Source of the DNA: a virus | Direction: 5' to 3' (one strand) | Length of the DNA: 25,876 nucleotides | Virus record (IMG/VR): IMGVR_UViG_3300043427_002589 | Span: 1 to 25,876 of that record | In this document: positions 12,192-21,211 of the stretch, piece by piece | How positions within the stretch are numbered: the first letter of the stretch is position 1 | Layout: each line of letters begins with the position of its first letter | Position numbers and translations under genes: made by a program | The notes under the pieces: generated by a model | Seen by the model: only the letters and a program-made list of their open reading frames with translations | Database searches by the model: none | Told to the model about the DNA's origin: nothing

Positions 12192-12479
12192 ATGTACGTA
12201 GGTAGCGTAAAAGAAAAAAGTTCACATAAAAGAACAAGTAAGAACGGTATTGAACACGTTTATTTTAGAACGAAAAAAGTAAACGAGTTTATCTGTGATA
12301 GTTGTGGTGAAAGGTTTTTTCGAAATCACGCTAACATGAGTCCAAAAAGAATCAGCAATTCATATTTCCACGTGTGTAGTAGTTGTGATTCTAAAAGATT
12401 TGCTCAGAAAAAGGGCGTGGAAAAAAGAAAAATTTGGGATATGCCAGCAAGTAGTGATATGCCTATTGGCAGATTGTAG
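12192..12479 (+). CDS. Small zinc-binding conserved phage protein
   Basis: The product has 95 residues and is one of only two genes here on the plus strand. It has two CxxC pairs, C35-x2-C38 (FICDSCGERFF) and C62-x2-C65 (VCSSCDSKRFAQKKG), spaced as in a treble-clef or zinc-ribbon finger. Basic residues flank them, including MSPKR and a KKGVEKRKIWDMP tail. I recall similar short proteins in marine myoviruses, but no function is known to me. Nucleic-acid binding is an inference from the finger and the charge. It diverges from the giant fibre gene across 81 bases and ends 1 base from the stop of iscA, so it sits convergent to the Fe-S operon. No strong Shine-Dalgarno is visible before the ATG. 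Overlapping minus-strand frames here carry no recognisable motif. Confidence 0.72.
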   Translation: MYVGSVKEKSSHKRTSKNGIEHVYFRTKKVNEFICDSCGERFFRNHANMSPKRISNSYFHVCSSCDSKRFAQKKGVEKRKIWDMPASSDMPIGRL

Positions 12480-12480
12480 A

Positions 12481-12807
12481 TTAAATTCTAAAACTTTCGC
12501 CGCAACCGCAACGATCTTTTTCGTTAGGGTTAATAAATTCAAACCCTTCATTGAGACCTTTTTTCTGCCAGTCCATAGTAAGTCCTTGAACATACGGTGA
12601 ACTTCGGCCATCTACCCAAACTTTTACACCATAACTTTCATAGACAAATTGATCTCTTGTTACTGGTGCAAAGTCTACATATTCTAAAACATAGGCCATG
12701 CCTGAACAACCAGTGGTCTTAACACCTATTCGTATGCCTAAACCCTTGCCCCTACGTTCTAAATTTTGTTTGATTTTAGATGCTGCAATTTCAGTTAACA
12801 AGATCAT
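12481..12807 (-). CDS. iscA: A-type Fe-S carrier protein IscA
   Basis: IscA binds iron or a [2Fe-2S]/[4Fe-4S] cluster in the cytoplasm and passes it to apo-enzymes. The 108-residue length matches the family. The three ligand cysteines are present: C34 in the TTGCSGMAYVLEYVD motif, and C100 and C102 in the C-terminal CGCGESF. The run GCSGMAYVLE and the phrase GLNEGFEFINPN are typical of the IscA branch rather than ErpA or SufA. Its start overlaps the end of iscU by 17 bases, so translation is probably coupled. It is the last gene of the Fe-S operon. It differs clearly from the ErpA-type paralogue two genes upstream, so the pair is not a recent duplication. Confidence 0.93.
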   Translation of the reverse strand: MILLTEIAASKIKQNLERRGKGLGIRIGVKTTGCSGMAYVLEYVDFAPVTRDQFVYESYGVKVWVDGRSSPYVQGLTMDWQKKGLNEGFEFINPNEKDRCGCGESFRI

Positions 12808-13180
12808 GCTTTTCTTTATAATCTTTTATGGCTGCTTGAATCGCGTCTTCAGCAAGAATTGAGCAATGTATTTTAACTGGGGGGAGTGCAAGCTCTGTGG
12901 CGATCTCAGAATTCTTAATAGATCCTGCTTCTGCCAACGTCTTACCTTTGAGCCACTCCGTAACGAGTGATGAACTTGCGATTGCTGATCCACATCCGTA
13001 AGTTTTGAATTTCGCATCTTCAATGATTCCTTCATCGTTTACCTTTATTTGTAATTTCATTACATCACCACAGGCAGGTGCTCCTACCATACCAGTACCA
13101 ATGTTAGCATCATTTTTGTCAAAGCTACCAACGTTGCGAGGGTTCTCGTAGTGATCTATAACTTTGTCGCTGTACGCCAT
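12791..13180 (-). CDS. iscU: Fe-S cluster scaffold IscU
   Basis: IscU is the scaffold on which a [2Fe-2S] cluster is built from sulfur supplied by the desulfurase IscS, then released with HscA/HscB. The protein is full length (129 aa). The three cluster cysteines are intact: C37 in GAPACGDVM, C63 in TYGCGSAIASSS and C106 in KIHCSILAEDAI. D39 and H105, and the HscA-recognition motif LPPVK (99-103), are also intact. By eye it differs from my recollection of E. coli IscU at only about 20 positions, so it looks like a functional, fairly recent acquisition from a gamma- or betaproteobacterium. The window holds no IscS, HscA, HscB or Fdx, so it would have to work with host partners. Confidence 0.97.
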   Translation of the reverse strand: MAYSDKVIDHYENPRNVGSFDKNDANIGTGMVGAPACGDVMKLQIKVNDEGIIEDAKFKTYGCGSAIASSSLVTEWLKGKTLAEAGSIKNSEIATELALPPVKIHCSILAEDAIQAAIKDYKEKHDLVN

Positions 13181-13193
13181 ATCTTATTCCTAA

Positions 13194-13523
13194 TTAAACT
13201 GAAAAACTGCTACCACATCCGCAGGTAGTCTGAGCGTTTGGATTCTTAATTGTAAAACTATTACCAGTCAAATCCTCAGTGTAATTGATCTCTGCGCCGA
13301 TTAGATACTGATAACTCATAGAATCTACTAATATTTTAACACCAGATTTTTCTATCACAAAATCGTCCTCATTTTGTTCTTCATCAAAAGTAAATCCGTA
13401 TTGAAATCCTGAGCATCCGCCACCTTGGACAAATGTTCTTAATTTTAAATTAGGATTATTTTCTTCTGCTAACAAATCGGCAATTTTTGTCACTGCTGAT
13501 TCTGTAACTATAATTGACTCCAT
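13194..13523 (-). CDS. erpA: A-type Fe-S carrier ErpA
   Basis: ErpA is an A-type carrier that delivers [4Fe-4S] clusters to client enzymes, in bacteria including the isoprenoid enzymes IspG/IspH. The 109-residue protein carries the ErpA hallmarks [21 protein letters not shown] and a C-terminal [16 protein letters not shown]. The ligand cysteines are C37, C101 and C103. The whole family core is present with only a slightly short N-terminus. It lies 13 bases upstream of iscU, and its ATG is 1 base from the stop of the superoxide dismutase gene, so it is inside the operon. Having both ErpA and IscA lets the phage cover the two A-type branches found in gammaproteobacteria. Confidence 0.95.
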
Positions 13524-13524
13524 A

Positions 13525-14082
13525 TCAAGTTCCTAATCTAATGTTAACAACGTCCCAGTCTATGATACGCCATATATTTGCAAGATATTTGGCTTTATCT
13601 TGCTGGTAATCTAATGCCCAGGCATGTTCCCAAGCATCTATTAATAGTGCGATTTTCATATTCTTTTTGTATTCGTGATTATGTATAGTGTGTAGTTTTC
13701 CAGAGGTATCCATATAAATCCAATTAGACCCTTGTGCTGCCATAAATTCTTTTTCAAAAGCATCTTTAAACTTTTCAAAACTACCATATACTTCATCTAT
13801 TGTTGTCTTAGAAGTGCCATTTGGTTTGTTTGCTGCTCTGGCAGGGGCCAGATTGCCAAAAAACAAATTATGTAAAATAGCGCCGCCGTAGTTAAAGTCA
13901 GCATCACCTTCTCCTTTGTTGTAACGTTCGTAGTATTTGGCTGCTAATCCATCGTAATGATATTTTATAGTAGCCTCACTCATAACAGGATCAAGCTCAT
14001 TTTTGCTGTATTTGAGCCTGTTCTGATTAATTTCTCTAATGTCCGAAGACTCTTTTAAACTTTTAATAAATCTCATATTCAT
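13525..14082 (-). CDS. Fe/Mn-family superoxide dismutase
   Basis: This enzyme family converts superoxide to oxygen and hydrogen peroxide. All four metal ligands can be placed: H42 ([12 protein letters not shown]), H71 ([13 protein letters not shown]), and D149 and H153 ([13 protein letters not shown]). The C-terminal [14 protein letters not shown] is also typical. There are oddities. The HH pair that normally follows the first ligand, including the second-sphere His30 of E. coli Mn-SOD, is Leu-Ala here, although the partner Tyr is kept (Y50). The site of the Fe-SOD glutamine is Gly67. A His (H134 or H136) sits about where Mn-SOD has its glutamine. Metal choice is therefore uncertain. The protein has a roughly 20-residue N-terminal extension and no clear signal peptide. 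It sits between the SUF-like and ISC-type genes. M3 is an alternative start, and no good Shine-Dalgarno is visible. Confidence 0.9.
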
Positions 14083-14090
14083 AATGCTAT

Positions 14091-15095
14091 TTATTTTAAT
14101 TTTTTTAAGTATTCTGCTAAATTAATCATATCGTCTTTGGTATTATTATGATCCCATTTTACTTTAATCACTCCTTTAGTAGAGTACTGGAGTATGTATT
14201 CATCAATATCAAAAAACCCGAATTCTACATCAAAATCTTTTAAAAAATCATAGTTCTTATCTAAATCCATATTATCAGTGTAAAAACTTATGATTCCGGC
14301 TTTATAATATTCTGGACATAAAATTTTAATGTGATCACAGTCCTGTAGTTCGCCTAGGAGAGTAGCACTTAATAGTAGATATTTTGTTTTAAGATCATTA
14401 ACTCCTTGACTTAAAATATCAGTTAAACTTTCTATGACAAATGTTAAAAAATTAGAATTTATTTTTTCTAACTCTAATCTATTTGGTAACATAAGACTTT
14501 TGGTGCTTTTAGGAAAAATAGGGTTTAATTTTTCTAACTTTTTGTAATCCCCGTATAAAAATCCTAATCCCTCGCCAACACCGATATTCTCAGAATCAAA
14601 GAACAAGAAATCTGTGGATTGATCTTGTACGTTTATAGGTTCACTGACTATACTATCGTTACAGTTTAATACAGTAATACCTTCATATTTTTTAACTAAA
14701 GAAAATAGTTCTTTTATTGGTTGAAGGATGCCTGTAATTTCATTTACATGCGATATGAAAAATAAAATTCTACCTTCAGAATTTTCTAAAAGTTCTTCTA
14801 AATGAGCTAAATCCAATGTCCCATTTTTGATGACATTAACACGTTCTAACGAGCAGTTACTTTTATTTTGTAAATGTTGCAGTGCAGAAGTATATTTTGG
14901 TAATTCATTTTCAGGAAATAATATAAGGTCTCTAGGCCTCCAAACTATGCCCTGCGTAATAATATTGATCGAATGAATTGAATCTGCTGTAAAGATTATT
15001 TCATTTGATTTTCGTGCATTGATCAGTTGTTTGATTTTGTTTCTTACAGTTTCTTTTAATTCTGAATTAACTGTTGAAAAATTCTTTGACTTCAT
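14091..15095 (-). CDS. SufS-like cysteine desulfurase homologue, probably inactive
   Basis: The fold-type-I aminotransferase/SufS pattern is recognisable: INARKSNEIIFTADSIHSIN, then ILFFISHVNEITGILQPIKE, then GVGEGLGFLYGD. The key residues are missing. The PLP lysine of SufS (FSGHKLYG) aligns with N170 in FFDSENIGVGEG. The PLP-binding Asp and Gln of the DGAQ motif are N144 and D147. The His that stacks on PLP is replaced near L65-P66. The C-terminal RxGxHC motif with the catalytic Cys is replaced by DEYILQYS (about 298-305). About 70 N-terminal residues present in E. coli SufS are also absent. I infer a pseudoenzyme that may still bind SufE/SufBCD-type partners. It overlaps sufD by 29 bases. 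The open, unbroken 334-codon frame argues against simple decay. A shorter start is possible. Confidence 0.72.
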   Translation of the reverse strand: MKSKNFSTVNSELKETVRNKIKQLINARKSNEIIFTADSIHSINIITQGIVWRPRDLILFPENELPKYTSALQHLQNKSNCSLERVNVIKNGTLDLAHLEELLENSEGRILFFISHVNEITGILQPIKELFSLVKKYEGITVLNCNDSIVSEPINVQDQSTDFLFFDSENIGVGEGLGFLYGDYKKLEKLNPIFPKSTKSLMLPNRLELEKINSNFLTFVIESLTDILSQGVNDLKTKYLLLSATLLGELQDCDHIKILCPEYYKAGIISFYTDNMDLDKNYDFLKDFDVEFGFFDIDEYILQYSTKGVIKVKWDHNNTKDDMINLAEYLKKLK

Positions 15096-15891
15096 CTTTT
15101 AGATCTTCAAATTCAATTAAATTTAAAATTAAACCTCGATGTGATTCTAATAATATTTCTTTGGCTCTTTGAACTTCAATTCCTCTGGTTCTCAAGTACC
15201 ACAATTGTTCCTCGTCAAATTCCCCAATACTACAACTATGATTAGCTTCTACTTTACCGCAGTCGATAGCTAACTGTGGTATACTAAATGCCTGTCCACT
15301 TTCGTCAGTAATAATACTTGCATTATTAATTTGTGTATAACTGTTTATCATATCTTCTACGATTCTTACATGCCCTTGAAATACAGTTCTGCTCTCTTTT
15401 CCTGAAACGCAATTTACTATTTGATTGGTTTCGACATTAGGGCCTTCATGATGAATTTTTGATATAATTTCGCTACTACCACCTTCTGTATTTTCTGCGA
15501 TTCCAAATATACTGATAGAACTATTTTCGCCAGCTGAACATTCAAAAATGTGTTTATTTAATTTTCCGTTTTTGATAAAAACGCCAATATTTAAATTTGA
15601 ATCAGGTTGTGCTTCGATATGATACAAAAAAACTTGCTGGGTAGTTGAATCACCTTCACACAAAATAAACAAATTTAAGTTGCTGGATTCTTTACCTATA
15701 ATCTGTAAATGTTTACATAATAGATCGGATTCAGTAGGATTTAATCTTAAAACAACACTGTCGTCTGTTCCTTCTTTTATCATTAAACAGTTAGCATCAA
15801 TTACCTTAAACTGTTTTCCAAAATAATGATTAGGACTATAAGTCCAATCCGGATCTCTTTCGTCAACTTTTAAAAAACTTTCAATAGCCAT
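15067..15891 (-). CDS. sufD: SufD-like Fe-S scaffold subunit, shortened
   Basis: SufD pairs with SufB and SufC to form the SUF scaffold complex. The conserved C-terminal core is clear. It has HHEGPNVETNQ (147-157), VFQGHVRIVEDMINSYTQIN (170-189) and then ANHSCSIGEFDEEQLWYLRT (216-235). H218 aligns with the His of the CSHGAT motif that is essential in E. coli SufD, but the preceding Cys is Ala here. The IGEFDEEQLWYLRTRGI pattern favours SufD over SufB. At 274 residues it is much shorter than the bacterial protein of about 420, mostly through N-terminal loss. Its start overlaps the end of the sufC-like gene by 11 bases. No SufB is present, so any complex would need host SufB or a homodimer. Confidence 0.85.
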   Translation of the reverse strand: MAIESFLKVDERDPDWTYSPNHYFGKQFKVIDANCLMIKEGTDDSVVLRLNPTESDLLCKHLQIIGKESSNLNLFILCEGDSTTQQVFLYHIEAQPDSNLNIGVFIKNGKLNKHIFECSAGENSSISIFGIAENTEGGSSEIISKIHHEGPNVETNQIVNCVSGKESRTVFQGHVRIVEDMINSYTQINNASIITDESGQAFSIPQLAIDCGKVEANHSCSIGEFDEEQLWYLRTRGIEVQRAKEILLESHRGLILNLIEFEDLKDEVKEFFNS

Positions 15892-16594
15892 TAGTTCTTA
15901 TCCTTTTAAGAATTTTTTTGTCACCTGTCTTAACTATTTTTCCATTAGACATTAAATGAACTTTAGTTGGCGATAGTGAATCTAGTATTTTTGTGCTACT
16001 AGTGAATATTAGAACAATTTTATCATTGTTTTTTAGAAAATTTTGTATTTCGTTAGATATAAACTTTACAGTATCCTCGTCAACACCATCTTCTAAATCG
16101 TCTATCAAAATTAATTCAGGATTAGAACTAATCATTTGAGCGATTTCATTTTTCTTTCTTTCAGAAGGAGTACTTCCTAAATTAAAATCTTTATCTTTCC
16201 ATTCAGAACCTAACTCAAACTGTTTGATCAAATTTTTATAACTTTGTAAAATATCAGTTTTGCTCTTTGAATTTCTTTTTGTTTTTGACATTTCAACAAT
16301 TAATGAAGAATTTGAAATCCCCAAAATATCAGGTGGATTTTGAAAAGAAAGAAAAATTCCTAAATTGTTTCTTTCTTCAGAATTTAGGTTAAAAATATTT
16401 TTTCTTTTAAAAGTGATTTTACCAGAATCAGCTCTATATCTAGGATGCCCTGCAATAATATTACCTAGGGTACTTTTTCCACATCTTTTAGGCCCAATGA
16501 TAGCATGGATTTCTCCGGGCGTTGCTTCTAAGTTAATATTTTCTAATATTAAGATTCCATTTGAAGAGACGCTTACATTTTCTATTTTTAGCAT
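15881..16594 (-). CDS. sufC: SufC-like ABC ATPase with degraded catalytic motifs
   Basis: The 237-residue protein follows SufC along its length. It has Walker A GPKRCGKST (34-42), a Q-loop in the SufC-specific GIFLSFQNPPDILGISN (79-95), and a Walker B region LILIDDLEDGVD (161-172). Bacterial SufC is the ATPase that drives SufBCD rearrangement during cluster assembly. Several catalytic features have changed. The ABC signature SGGE is TPSE (142-145). The catalytic Glu after the Walker B Asp is D166. The H-loop His is S199 (FTSSTKIL). ATP binding looks possible, but hydrolysis is doubtful. It is the first gene after the operon promoter, with a modest AAGG Shine-Dalgarno, and overlaps sufD. The name reflects homology, not proven activity. 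Confidence 0.85.
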   Translation of the reverse strand: MLKIENVSVSSNGILILENINLEATPGEIHAIIGPKRCGKSTLGNIIAGHPRYRADSGKITFKRKNIFNLNSEERNNLGIFLSFQNPPDILGISNSSLIVEMSKTKRNSKSKTDILQSYKNLIKQFELGSEWKDKDFNLGSTPSERKKNEIAQMISSNPELILIDDLEDGVDEDTVKFISNEIQNFLKNNDKIVLIFTSSTKILDSLSPTKVHLMSNGKIVKTGDKKILKRIRTNGY

Positions 16595-17144: not shown

Positions 17145-17336
17145 TTAATTTTCTAGTAGTTTTTTAGATTTTGTGATTTCGTCCAAAGTCTTTAATTTTT
17201 TCTTTTTTAAATAGTTTACCAGTGCATCATCTTTGTATCTAGAGTGATCTTCTTGAATTTGCTTATCTAAGTCATCATGTAATTTCTGTAAGTAAGCTAT
17301 TCGATTGTTTATCTTTACTGAGGTTAGATTTTTCAT
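17145..17336 (-). CDS. DUF465/YdcH-like small helical protein
   Basis: The 63-residue product (MKNLTSVKINNRIAYLQKLH...) matches the DUF465 pattern: LxxLHxxLDxxI, then a gap, then a KKKKLKTLDEI segment, forming a two-helix coiled coil. The family is common in proteobacteria and of unknown function. I chose the ATG at 17336 because an AGGAG Shine-Dalgarno lies just upstream (minus-strand CAGGAGTATCAAATG). A longer reading from 17399 adds 21 residues with no family match. The gene overlaps the 3' end of UVDE by 62 bases in another frame, an unusually long overlap even for this compact window. It ends at the bidirectional terminator. Confidence 0.75.
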   Translation of the reverse strand: MKNLTSVKINNRIAYLQKLHDDLDKQIQEDHSRYKDDALVNYLKKKKLKTLDEITKSKKLLEN

Positions 17337-18357
17337 TTGATACTCCTGTAAAATATTTGTGTAATTCAAATGATGCAAGATTTTTGGCTTTACTTTCACA
17401 CATGACGTCTGCCCATTGCCAGTGTGTAGCTGCCCAACTATTTACTGCATCATTCCAATAGAAGTTAGAATGTGCTCGTAATTTTGCTTTCTTATGTCCT
17501 GATTCTAGGAGGGCCTGAAGAGCGGGACGGGTGTGTCCGGGATGTTCTCCAAGTAAATTTTCCCTAGAAACAGAGTAGTGTATGACAGGACGCACACCGC
17601 GCCAACTATCAATAATCCTTTTAATACGGTCGTCATTTTCTTCAATATATTCTCCTGTGTGTATCCAATGATGGTGTATGTCTAGCACCAAAGCGAGATC
17701 GTTTGCCAATTCGAGGCTGGCGTCGATTCCCCAACTGATTTCGTCGTTTTCGATAGTAATACAGTTTCTCGCTTCTGGTGAGAGACGCCTAAGTGCGGCT
17801 TTGATACCGGCTGGACCGGCTCTACCCGCGATGTGGACATTGATTTTAAAGTCCTGGAACGATGTGCCATAGCCCATCCATCTAACCATATCTGCATGAT
17901 ATTCAAACTCCTCTATACTACGCTGAACAATATCAGCATTGTCACTTGCCAACACAGTGAATTGACCAGGATGAAAACTAAGCCGAACGTTACGGGCTCT
18001 AGCAATATCTCCCACTTCTCTAAAATGTTTGCTGGCATAATCCTGTACATCAGCTTGACGCCAAAACCAGCACCAATCGCGCTGAGTATACACAGGAAGA
18101 AGGTCACTGCTAAGACGTACCATACGTAGCTCATTATCTAAATTACCTACTCTTTCTACTAATAGTCTAGTTGATTCAATGTTTTGTTTTACCAATGACC
18201 AAAGTTTTTCAACGGCAACGTCTTTACTTTGTCTATTTAACCAAGATACTGTAGTAGCACCGGTATTGTATTTTTTACAGTCATCTTTGGGGCTGATTCC
18301 ATCTACTTGATCAGGGCGATCAATCCATTTACAGGCGAAACCGATACGTTTAGTCAT
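17275..18357 (-). CDS. uvsE: UV damage endonuclease (UVDE family)
   Basis: UVDE enzymes nick DNA 5' of UV photoproducts to start an alternative excision repair. The TIM-barrel family motifs are present: MTKRIGFACKW at the N-terminus, VRLSSDLLP, RLSFHPGQFTVLAS, NVHIAGRAG, ITIENDE, LALVLDIHHHWIHTGEY and the HYSVSR segment. They supply the His, Glu and Asp metal ligands expected. The chosen start is the ATG at 18357, giving 360 residues. The frame extends 24 codons further upstream, but that stretch covers the promoter and encodes an unrelated hydrophobic peptide. The leader has no strong Shine-Dalgarno. The gene has its own consensus promoter embedded in a palindrome. Phage-encoded UVDE would protect phage DNA in sunlit water. 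Confidence 0.93.
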   Translation of the reverse strand: MTKRIGFACKWIDRPDQVDGISPKDDCKKYNTGATTVSWLNRQSKDVAVEKLWSLVKQNIESTRLLVERVGNLDNELRMVRLSSDLLPVYTQRDWCWFWRQADVQDYASKHFREVGDIARARNVRLSFHPGQFTVLASDNADIVQRSIEEFEYHADMVRWMGYGTSFQDFKINVHIAGRAGPAGIKAALRRLSPEARNCITIENDEISWGIDASLELANDLALVLDIHHHWIHTGEYIEENDDRIKRIIDSWRGVRPVIHYSVSRENLLGEHPGHTRPALQALLESGHKKAKLRAHSNFYWNDAVNSWAATHWQWADVMCESKAKNLASFELHKYFTGVSNEKSNLSKDKQSNSLLTEIT

Positions 18358-18370
18358 GATGAATAATAAG

Positions 18371-18405
18371 AAAGGACATAAAGCTATTATAGCAGTATGC
18401 CCTTT
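18371..18405. promoter_or_regulatory. 35-bp near-palindrome spanning the UVDE promoter -10
   Basis: The 35 bases form an inverted repeat with 17-base arms and 3 mismatched pairs around a single central base. The core GCTATTATAGC (18383-18393) is a perfect 11-mer palindrome and contains most of the -10 box. It could be a repressor operator, or an RNA hairpin ending transcripts that arrive from queD and the small membrane gene upstream. Confidence 0.6.
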
Positions 18406-18414
18406 GTTTGTCAA
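18386..18414 (-). promoter_or_regulatory. Consensus sigma70 promoter of UVDE
   Basis: On the minus strand there is a perfect -35 TTGACA (18414-18409), a 17-base spacer and a perfect -10 TATAAT (18391-18386). It lies about 30 bases before the UVDE ATG at 18357. This is the best match to a host vegetative promoter in the window. Confidence 0.85.
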
Positions 18415-18422
18415 GGATAAAT

Positions 18423-18614
18423 CTACCAATGTCTAATTACATTAGCGATGATAAAAAAGCAAGTTATGATGTGTATTATTACCCAAAATGTTTTGAAAAA
18501 TAATGCTATCCTTGCTTCTCTAACCGTTAAAATGGGAATATCTGGACGATCATCGTCAGTTTTTCCCATTAAGTGCCCAGTTGCCCGAGCCCAGATTTTT
18601 TCAAAACTGTTCAT
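18423..18614 (-). CDS. Small membrane protein, 63 aa
   Basis: The product has a polar N-terminal half (MNSFEKIWARATGHLMGKTD) that includes DDDRPDIPILTVREAR. One long hydrophobic helix follows (ALFFKTFWVIIHIITCFFIIANVI, about residues 37-60), and the protein ends in RHW. This predicts a single-pass inner-membrane protein with a cytoplasmic N-terminus. Similar short proteins occur, as I recall, next to housekeeping genes in cyanophage-like genomes. Its function is unknown to me. The start overlaps the queD stop as ATGA. The Shine-Dalgarno-like AAGG abuts the ATG, so translation is probably coupled to queD. The UVDE -35 box begins 9 bases beyond its stop codon. Confidence 0.7.
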   Translation of the reverse strand: MNSFEKIWARATGHLMGKTDDDRPDIPILTVREARIALFFKTFWVIIHIITCFFIIANVIRHW

Positions 18615-19126
18615 CCTTCGTATGTAGCTGAGTTAGCACCGTGTTCAAATACTTCAACTGATTTAACTCTTACTGTTGGATTAATTGGATAGCGCATTGT
18701 GCCTGATGCTAATAGTTCAGCCATTTTGTCAAAACACATTTTAGCAAACATTTCGCAACCTACACCATCTACTACTCGCAAATCACAAATCGCACCACGT
18801 TCGTGTGGAACATTGCTGTCTGGATTTGCAGAACCCATGTTAACTGTTGATGCAAGGTGTTTAAAAACATCTAGCATTGGATCGTCTTTGGCAACAACCA
18901 GTGTATGATCAAACATGTGATCGGCCCATGCTTTGAATTCTTTAAGACCGCCAAAGTCCATACACCAGTTTTTGTCATCTAGTGTGTCACATTCAAATAC
19001 AAGTTTGATACCAATCGAGTATCCGTGTAGTGTTGAGCAATGACTGTGTGTTGCTCTCCACTGTCTAAAACAGCATGACAGCCCTCTGTCGTTACCGTAA
19101 GTTTTTGTTGAATAAAATTTTGCCAT
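18611..19126 (-). CDS. queD: QueD / 6-pyruvoyl-tetrahydropterin synthase family protein
   Basis: Family members convert dihydroneopterin triphosphate to 6-carboxy- or 6-pyruvoyl-tetrahydropterin, an early step of queuosine or pterin synthesis. The protein is 171 residues. The core FRQWRATHSHCSTLHGYSIG carries the catalytic-type C30 and the Zn-type H34. MDFGGLK (56-62), MFDHTLVV (the Asp-His pair) and the C-terminal VEVFEHGANSATY also fit. Two features are unusual. The usual HGH is HGY (Y36), so one Zn ligand is missing there. The loop between the first Zn His and the Cys is almost absent, so H27 or H29 may complete the site. No QueC, QueE, FolE or Tgt is in the window. It has a GAGGAGA Shine-Dalgarno and its own promoter. 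Confidence 0.85.
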   Translation of the reverse strand: MAKFYSTKTYGNDRGLSCCFRQWRATHSHCSTLHGYSIGIKLVFECDTLDDKNWCMDFGGLKEFKAWADHMFDHTLVVAKDDPMLDVFKHLASTVNMGSANPDSNVPHERGAICDLRVVDGVGCEMFAKMCFDKMAELLASGTMRYPINPTVRVKSVEVFEHGANSATYEG

Positions 19127-19545: not shown

Positions 19546-20625
19546 TTATTCCTGTATTATGCCAAATTGTAGCCATTTGCCGGGAGACCCTGAAACAACA
19601 CAGACCCACCCAATCGGCGAATTTGTCTGTGGATTTTCGTTCCAAACTATGTCTCCTCTTTTATAGTTACCTTTATTTGGAGGAGAATTATCTACCATGA
19701 AAAGTTTTCCAGAAATTTTTATACTGCCTCGTATGTCTAAATCAACTTCGGGATTTTTAACATTAATACCTACTTTTCCCCATACTCTTGTGGTGACGTC
19801 TTCTTTATATTCATTGCCAATAGTTAATACTCCTTTTGGCTCTAAAGTGATCAATGTAAGATCACCGACGGTTAAATCAAATGGTCTGTTATTAAAAGTT
19901 CCTATTCGAGCCCTACCATTATCTACATCAATATTCATGATAACATCTTGTTCGATGTCACTGATAGTAATGGTACCTACTGGTTGTTCGGTATTGATAG
20001 CTATTCTTTGTTGATCAGAACTGAATCGCACAAATTCAGATAAGTTCACATCTCCAGTTACATTTAAACTGTGTAATGTGCCAACTTCTCTTAGGCTACT
20101 TTTTCTTATTGTAGATCCTAATGTATTTTTGTTTAGTACATCTACACCATCTATTTTGTAAGATTTTTCTGGCGGCAAATCAAAATTTTCTGTAGAAAAG
20201 AATCTATCTGGATTATTTTTAAAAACAAATAGTTTGGTATAGTCTCTACCCTTCCAAATCAATCCACTGCCGTTGGGATTAACAGAAACATCTATAGGCT
20301 GAAATTCCAGATACATTTTATCATATGTTCTATCTGAAACCAATTCTGTGACTTTTAATTTTTCTATTCTTAATTCACCAGTAACGTGAAGATTGCCTAG
20401 TAATTGTACATCACCGTCAATTCTTTTAGTTTCGATTATATCTACTTCTATTTTATTGTCTTTAATAACTAAAGAAGTTTTAGTAGATTGATCAGATATT
20501 CCTGTACTGGAAAAGGAAGAGACGCAACCTCCGGAAATTAAATCTCCGGAGATTTCGCCATTATTGATGTTTAATTGATTAAACTTTATATTTTTTAATA
20601 ATTCACTACTGTTAAATGCTGGCAT
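19546..20625 (-). CDS. Fibre- or baseplate-like structural protein, 359 aa
   Basis: The protein is rich in short beta-strand motifs and has several phage tail-fibre features: [16 protein letters not shown] (75-90), [20 protein letters not shown] and [20 protein letters not shown]. The last of these is the 'VGI-NP-LDI-G' repeat seen in tail spikes and fibre shafts. The C-terminal part ([12 protein letters not shown], then [18 protein letters not shown]) resembles the last domain of several marine phage receptor-binding or structural proteins. It has no signal peptide or membrane segment. Its start overlaps the end of clpP by 14 bases. A virion role is likely, but the precise part (fibre, whisker or baseplate) cannot be set from sequence alone. 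Confidence 0.72.
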
Positions 20626-21211
20626 TTGGTCGTTTATCTACTATATGATCCACTAGTCCGTAATCTAAGGACTCTTGTGCATTCATATACTTATCACGCT
20701 CCATATCCAAGCTCAGTTGATCAAAAGTTTTTTCTTTGCTGTTGTGTTTAACATAAATTCCTGTCAGCTCTTTTTTGATCTTTAGTATTTCTTCAACTTG
20801 AATCTGCATGTCTGTAGCCTGCCCTCGGGCACCACCACTAGGTTGATGTATCATGTGTCGAGCATTGGGCAACATATATCGTTTTCCTGGAGTGCCTGAT
20901 TGTGCTAACAAACTGCCCATACTACAGGCCTGTCCCATAACATATGTACAGACATCAGGTTTAATGAATTGCATGGTATCATAGATACTCATACCTGCAG
21001 TAACTACTCCGCCAGGACTATTGATATACATGTGTATATCACCTTCCCCTTCACTTTCTAAGAACAGTAATTGCGCTACAATTAAATTAGCCATGTAATC
21101 TTCAACTTGTCCATTTAAAAAGATTACACGATCTTTCAATAGACGACTATAGATATCATAGGAACGCTCACCTTGACTACTTTTTTCTACTACGATTGGT
21201 ACTAAACTCAT
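20612..21211 (-). CDS. clpP: ClpP-family serine protease
   Basis: ClpP forms a barrel-shaped protease that degrades unfolded proteins fed by a Clp ATPase. The 199-residue product is full length with an intact catalytic triad: S97 ([14 protein letters not shown]), H122 ([18 protein letters not shown]) and the Asp of MERDKYM (D173). The [18 protein letters not shown] segment forms the usual oxyanion and substrate groove. The nucleophile motif has Cys before the Ser where Ala is usual. No ClpX or ClpA is in the window, so it would use host ATPases or act alone. It lies in an overlapping cluster (ATGA with the upstream membrane gene, 14 bases with the fibre-like gene). Phage ClpP has been proposed to act in protein turnover or virion maturation. 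Confidence 0.95.

Follow-up and report, generated by a model that had tools for sequence, protein, structure and literature searches.

A phage-encoded pseudo-cysteine desulfurase of SufS descent in an operon that also carries IscU

In the literature searched, Fe-S assembly genes of phages appear as isolated genes only. According to the accessible part of one report, T4-like marine viral genomes carry ATC, IscU, Grx, PaaD and ClpP (PMC5332604), and viromes from oxygen-minimum zones contain viral sufE and nifU as auxiliary genes (PMC8940887). No report of a phage SufBCDS operon, a SufC-SufD pair or a pseudo-SufS was found in the literature outside subscription-only papers. The protein described here resembles the group II cysteine desulfurase SufS of Escherichia coli (PDB 5db5) and Bacillus subtilis in predicted fold and, through phage SufS, in ancestry, and its locus shares the gene order sufC-sufD-sufS with SufS systems. 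In contrast to these enzymes, it lacks the active-site Lys, His, Asp, Arg and Cys, the first ~56 residues and the beta-hairpin over the active site.

The window, by which we mean the whole stretch of 25,876 nucleotides analysed (IMG/VR record IMGVR_UViG_3300043427_002589), has in common with the T4-like marine viruses a phage-borne IscU of gammaproteobacterial type together with ATC and ClpP; the accessible part of that report mentions no SufB, SufC, SufD, SufS or dead members (PMC5332604). As with viral sufE and nifU, single Fe-S assembly parts are present that would need host partners, whereas in those viromes sufE occurs without sufS, and there is no operon and no pseudoenzyme (PMC8940887). 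On one strand the window encodes, in order, SufC, SufD, the protein that we call pseudo-SufS, superoxide dismutase (SodB), ErpA, IscU and IscA, followed by a large tail fibre gene (Table 1). SufC and SufD overlap by 11 nt, and no tRNA or Rfam matches were found in the window. The closest IscU found in 369 genomes of the class of Pusillimonas shares 86% identity with that of the window and points to a host in the Gammaproteobacteria (in the GTDB sense, the class of Pusillimonas) and no finer. A 95-aa protein encoded against the direction of the operon has no match in Pfam or PHROG; in L008, L009, L010 and L017 relatives occupy the same site, with the Fe-S genes on one side and the tail gene on the other, and none was seen in L016.

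Table 1. Features of the window around the Fe-S genes.
Feature	Coordinates	Strand	Remarks
95-aa protein	12192-12479	+	two CxxC pairs
IscA	12481..12807	-	140 bits, just under cut-off 150.6; C34, C100, C102 present
IscU scaffold	12791..13180	-	TIGR01999, 229 bits vs cut-off 192; C37, C63, H105, C106 present
ErpA	13194..13523	-	over curated NCBIfam cut-off; C37, C101, C103 present
Fe/Mn superoxide dismutase (SodB)	13525..14082	-	four metal ligands present, read by eye
Pseudo-SufS (pseudo-cysteine-desulfurase)	14091..15095	-	334 aa, ATG start, frame open throughout
SufD	15067..15891	-	274 aa, short phage form; PF01458, 116 bits
SufC	15881..16594	-	Walker A kept; signature, Walker B Glu, H-loop His lost
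UvdE-like UV endonuclease	17275-18429	-	adjoins Fe-S genes in most related phages as well
QueD-like gene	18611-19126	-	adjoins Fe-S genes in most related phages as well
ClpP-like gene	20612-21211	-	adjoins Fe-S genes in most related phages as well

Pseudo-SufS is an aminotransferase class V homologue (PF00266, E 6.5e-31, 108 bits in a Pfam profile search). The best-scoring NCBIfam model, TIGR01979 (sufS), gives 105 bits, under its cut-off of 475; the active phage SufS relatives likewise fall under this cut-off (432, 418 and 435 bits), and Cys-less phage forms described below score 274 and 266 bits. An AlphaFold2 model computed with 37 related sequences as input (mean pLDDT 88.4, pTM 0.89) has E. 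coli SufS as its closest solved structure (Z 35.9, 2.1 Å over 327 residues), and we are confident that the protein, as modelled, keeps the fold type I aminotransferase fold of SufS. The initial annotation, made from the DNA letters, had called the protein SufS-like on the strength of aminotransferase fold signals and had proposed a profile search and a predicted-structure comparison with SufS; both bear it out. It had also proposed that ~70 N-terminal residues are missing. The structural match starts at E. coli residue 57, so pseudo-SufS corresponds to the SufS body minus its first ~56 residues: the loss is confirmed, and its size was overestimated.

The state of the active site was read from a 37-sequence alignment. 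The column of the Schiff-base PLP lysine is occupied by N170, with E169 in place of the preceding His, and the D-G-A-Q column reads N144-C145-N146-D147, so that N144 replaces the PLP-ring Asp. The E-H-H-x-N column reads E64-L65-P66-K-Y68, with L65/P66 for the catalytic His and Y68 for the Asn; the substrate Arg of the RASF motif is K311; and the Cys loop (GHHCAQP, or GFLCAQP in phage relatives) has become G293-FFDIDE, which contains no catalytic Cys. The assignments of N170 and of N144 to D147 had been made beforehand and proved exact, there being no Lys at the Schiff-base position, and the C-terminal Cys motif is gone, as had also been claimed. Conservation in the alignment is 90% or more for the columns of Lys, Asp, His, Asn and Arg, and the window type deviates at all five. 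These losses exceed chance, and the observation stands. A 13-aa HRGxH loop and a 9-10-aa hairpin (GGDMIxxV...) are absent from pseudo-SufS and already from the Cys-less intermediates, in which the remaining N-terminus is present; that part is absent solely in the window type.

Two technical explanations were rejected. An alignment artefact is contradicted by the agreement of pairwise HMMER, two multiple alignments and the structural match. The possibility that a frameshift or a wrongly annotated start conceals the N-terminus is contradicted by the start, which overlaps sufD as in the relatives, and by the next conserved block, which is in frame; the indels that separate pseudo-SufS from its relatives keep the reading frame open. 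By its sequence the protein is a pseudoenzyme of SufS descent and is not to be classed as a cysteine desulfurase.

For comparison, 37 phage SufD loci from IMG/VR were sorted into four kinds. INPHARED phage records gave no close match to the Fe-S genes of the window, and weak matches in cultured phages were set aside because they resemble host-type suf genes in phage-labelled assemblies. The first group (L022, L028, L030, L033) has a full SUF operon, SufB-SufC-SufD-SufS-SufE-SufT/DUF59-SufA, with intact SufC motifs and an intact Lys and Cys in SufS; in L022 a monothiol-glutaredoxin-like gene lies between SufB and SufC. The second, Cys-less group (L023-L027, L029) encodes SufC, SufD and SufS followed by IscU-IscA, without SufB or SufE; SufE, SufT and SufA have been lost, as has SufB where the contig shows the region. 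Its SufC has the signature SAGE and Asp for the Walker B Glu. Its SufS has lost the Cys, the Gln of DxxQ and the two active-site loops, but keeps Lys, His and Asp, and from these residues may still bind PLP; an AlphaFold2 prediction was likewise obtained for the Cys-less relative L024 (pLDDT 92.4). L008 has a SufS of this kind and a more degenerate SufC, within which its contig begins; IscU-IscA is missing from the stretch that separates its SufS from the tail gene. The third group is the window with its near-copies L020 and L021. The fourth (L031-L055 except L033; contigs up to 353 kb) has SufC-SufD but neither SufB nor SufS, and superoxide dismutase is frequently present as well; it is larger than the other groups, and the SufC-SufD pair without SufB is widespread in phages.

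Across these loci SufD is 273-276 aa long in 37 of 37, those with an intact SUF operon included. The short SufD that the initial annotation had listed as an oddity is thus normal for the lineage, and truncation is rejected. The presence of SufB and an intact SGGE signature in SufC agree in all 37 loci (signature intact in 4/4 with SufB and 0/33 without), a concordance that represents few independent events, given several near-copies and shared ancestry, and that includes five loci with <1.5 kb of upstream sequence, where SufB absence cannot be read. In the Cys-less group, neither the 245-kb nor the 215-kb contig contains a further gene for a SufBD protein or a class V aminotransferase, and no second SufS or SufB was found elsewhere in the 75-kb (a fragment), 245-kb or 215-kb contigs. 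A separate scan for SufB returned many candidate viral contigs (L153-L172, SufB 64-72% identical), mostly without recognisable SufC-D-S alongside; L161 and L172 have SufB, SufE, SufC and a SufD-like gene.

In the SufS tree, bacterial SufS all fall outside the phage clade as outgroup. The dead pair joins the Cys-less forms (98/91), and both are nested in active phage SufS (99/92, 100/94, 100/100). The dead-pair stem carries 4.49 changes per site against ~0.25 in sister branches, a length at which its exact position could reflect long-branch effects; its placement with the Cys-less group is independently supported because the two loop deletions are common to both. In the SufC tree, the SufC-SufD-only group forms one clade (100/99), with the window SufC weakly adjacent on a long branch. 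Sequence comparison shows that pseudo-SufS descends from an active phage SufS of a complete SUF operon, and that the chemistry of SufS was lost in ordered steps, from active to Cys-less to PLP-less forms.

Gene content, alignment and tree together show at least two such steps. At the first, SufS lost two loops at the active site along with its catalytic Cys and the Gln of DxxQ; sufE, sufT and sufA vanished as well, as did sufB where the contig shows the region, and most members acquired iscU-iscA. At the second, confined to the window group, what remained of the N-terminus went, together with the PLP lysine, the ring Asp and the catalytic His. Since L008 is Cys-less yet lacks IscU, Cys loss and IscU gain are not strictly coupled; either IscU-IscA entered once, before the second and third groups split, with a later loss in L008, or it entered at least twice.

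Evidence for what became of SufS after these losses comes from the rates of change. In two diverged phages the Cys-less SufS has a dN/dS of 0.049, compared with 0.048 for the SufD of those phages and 0.040 for active SufS. Purifying selection is strong and equals that on SufD, so this group still needs its Cys-less SufS, and it is mainly this value that argues for a retained role of pseudo-SufS. The window protein differs from its nearest relative by 6 synonymous and 4 nonsynonymous changes (dN/dS 0.16), where ~73-76% nonsynonymous changes are expected under neutrality (P 0.008-0.03, by assumptions), in a test that draws on ten changes only, from the sole slightly diverged copy. All ten are later than the loss of the active site. 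The constraint is weaker than in the Cys-less group and gives modest support to a retained role.

The same data bear on a serious rival, late decay, which we hold to be a substantial though lesser possibility: pseudo-SufS (and the window SufC) would be relics on their way out after the takeover by IscU, the frame remaining open through residual constraint or because disruption would harm translation of the downstream sodB-erpA-iscU-iscA. Synonymous change is saturated on the window stem, which makes its dN/dS unreliable, and relative rates were used instead: on the window branch SufS changed several-fold more than SufD. The window SufD has evolved at a normal rate (62-64% identity to most relatives) and is the best preserved of the three Suf proteins, while SufC keeps 46-48% identity. 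This strong acceleration of pseudo-SufS and SufC is what decay predicts, and three of the four amino-acid differences between the window and its nearest relative outside the tail gene lie in pseudo-SufS. The gene is also tightly packed, its start overlapping the last 29 nt of sufD and sodB starting 8 nt past its stop, as the translational variant would have it. Moreover L021, which over 9,025 bases shows 0 mismatches to the window, carries a 25-bp deletion at contig position 1347, between short AGAA repeats, and the resulting frameshift cuts pseudo-SufS to 108 aa; seen in one metagenome contig, the deletion may be genuine or may stem from misassembly. Decay is opposed by the confident fold prediction, the 334-codon frame that is still open, a dN/dS under the neutral value and the strong constraint seen after catalytic loss in the first-step group. 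Weighing these, we somewhat favour a working over a fading pseudoenzyme.

The neighbours of pseudo-SufS had prompted the earlier suggestion of a dead desulfurase beside an ATPase-dead SufC and a short SufD, possibly forming a regulatory or decoy complex. The dead desulfurase is confirmed and the short SufD, as seen above, is normal for the lineage; for SufC the suggestion holds in part, and a regulatory or decoy complex is a hypothesis. The Walker A motif is kept (GPKRCGKST), but the ABC signature SGGE has become TPSE, the Walker B Glu is Asp and the H-loop His is gone, so that SufC is better described as ATPase-impaired; it scores 203 bits on TIGR01978 (cut-off 212.8). In asymmetric ABC ATPase pairs one of the two sites is degenerate. 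The window SufC is like such a site in its retained Walker A, degenerate signature and Walker B Glu-to-Asp change; unlike in those pairs, no partner SufC is encoded in the window, and a partner would have to come from the host. SufD scores 129 bits on TIGR01981, under the cut-off of 222, and its H218 aligns with His360 of E. coli SufD, which is essential and lies where SufB and SufD meet (PMC5571166). That SufD is best preserved and keeps this His fits partnership with a host SufB, without proving it.

These features would also suit a decoy or poison, in which SufC, SufD and pseudo-SufS enter mixed complexes with host SufB, SufC, SufE or SufS and block or divert host SUF while the phage ISC parts run. 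The SufB-facing His speaks for it, as does a Walker A without signature, which is how the degenerate member of an asymmetric pair would look, and mixing with host subunits has to be considered when many related phages have SufC-SufD without SufB or SufS and other viral contigs have SufB without these genes. However, in the SufC-SufD-only group the His360 equivalent is lost, and with it a uniform mechanism, so that this group has a different use, or none, at the His site; there the (G)xLNKHI block and the YLxxxG helix of SufD are kept, Walker A of SufC is kept in nearly all and the ABC signature lost in all. Moreover, in a point absent from the initial annotation, the residues listed in Table 1 make the phage IscU, ErpA and IscA, and likewise SodB, look functional, and this gives the picture of a SUF operon rebuilt around IscU and not of a poisoned SUF complex. 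We consider the decoy or poison reading unlikely. Less probable by far is a new activity, with the empty PLP pocket binding another ligand or catalysing another reaction: N144-C145-N146-D147 puts a Cys at the cofactor site of a fold predicted to be intact, but no conserved new motif can be defined, as the window-type copies are all near-identical.

We give an even chance to the proposal that pseudo-SufS is kept as a folded non-catalytic subunit, in a once-active SUF operon rebuilt mostly around IscU, and among the explanations considered such a retained subunit is the most likely. The folded remnant would dock on its old partners, namely SufD and perhaps host SufE or host SufS. Sulfur for the intact phage IscU would be supplied by host IscS, a pairing that we infer because the phage sequence examined has no desulfurase of its own, and IscA and ErpA would pass clusters onward. 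SufC, SufD and pseudo-SufS would then form a putative accessory or regulatory module, possibly a hybrid with host SUF proteins. We offer only tentatively, as rather doubtful, the broader account that loss of SufB led SufC to drop its signature and SufS its sulfur chemistry, the remainder being kept as a docking module for host Fe-S proteins.

Taken together, the series from active through Cys-less to PLP-less forms makes a path from enzyme to pseudoenzyme readable within one operon. A change of partners is visible beside the loss of the enzyme, with SufB and SufE gone and IscU mostly gained, and uncultured phages are seen to carry whole SUF operons. If the dead proteins have a role, they would give a handle on SUF subunit interactions apart from catalysis.
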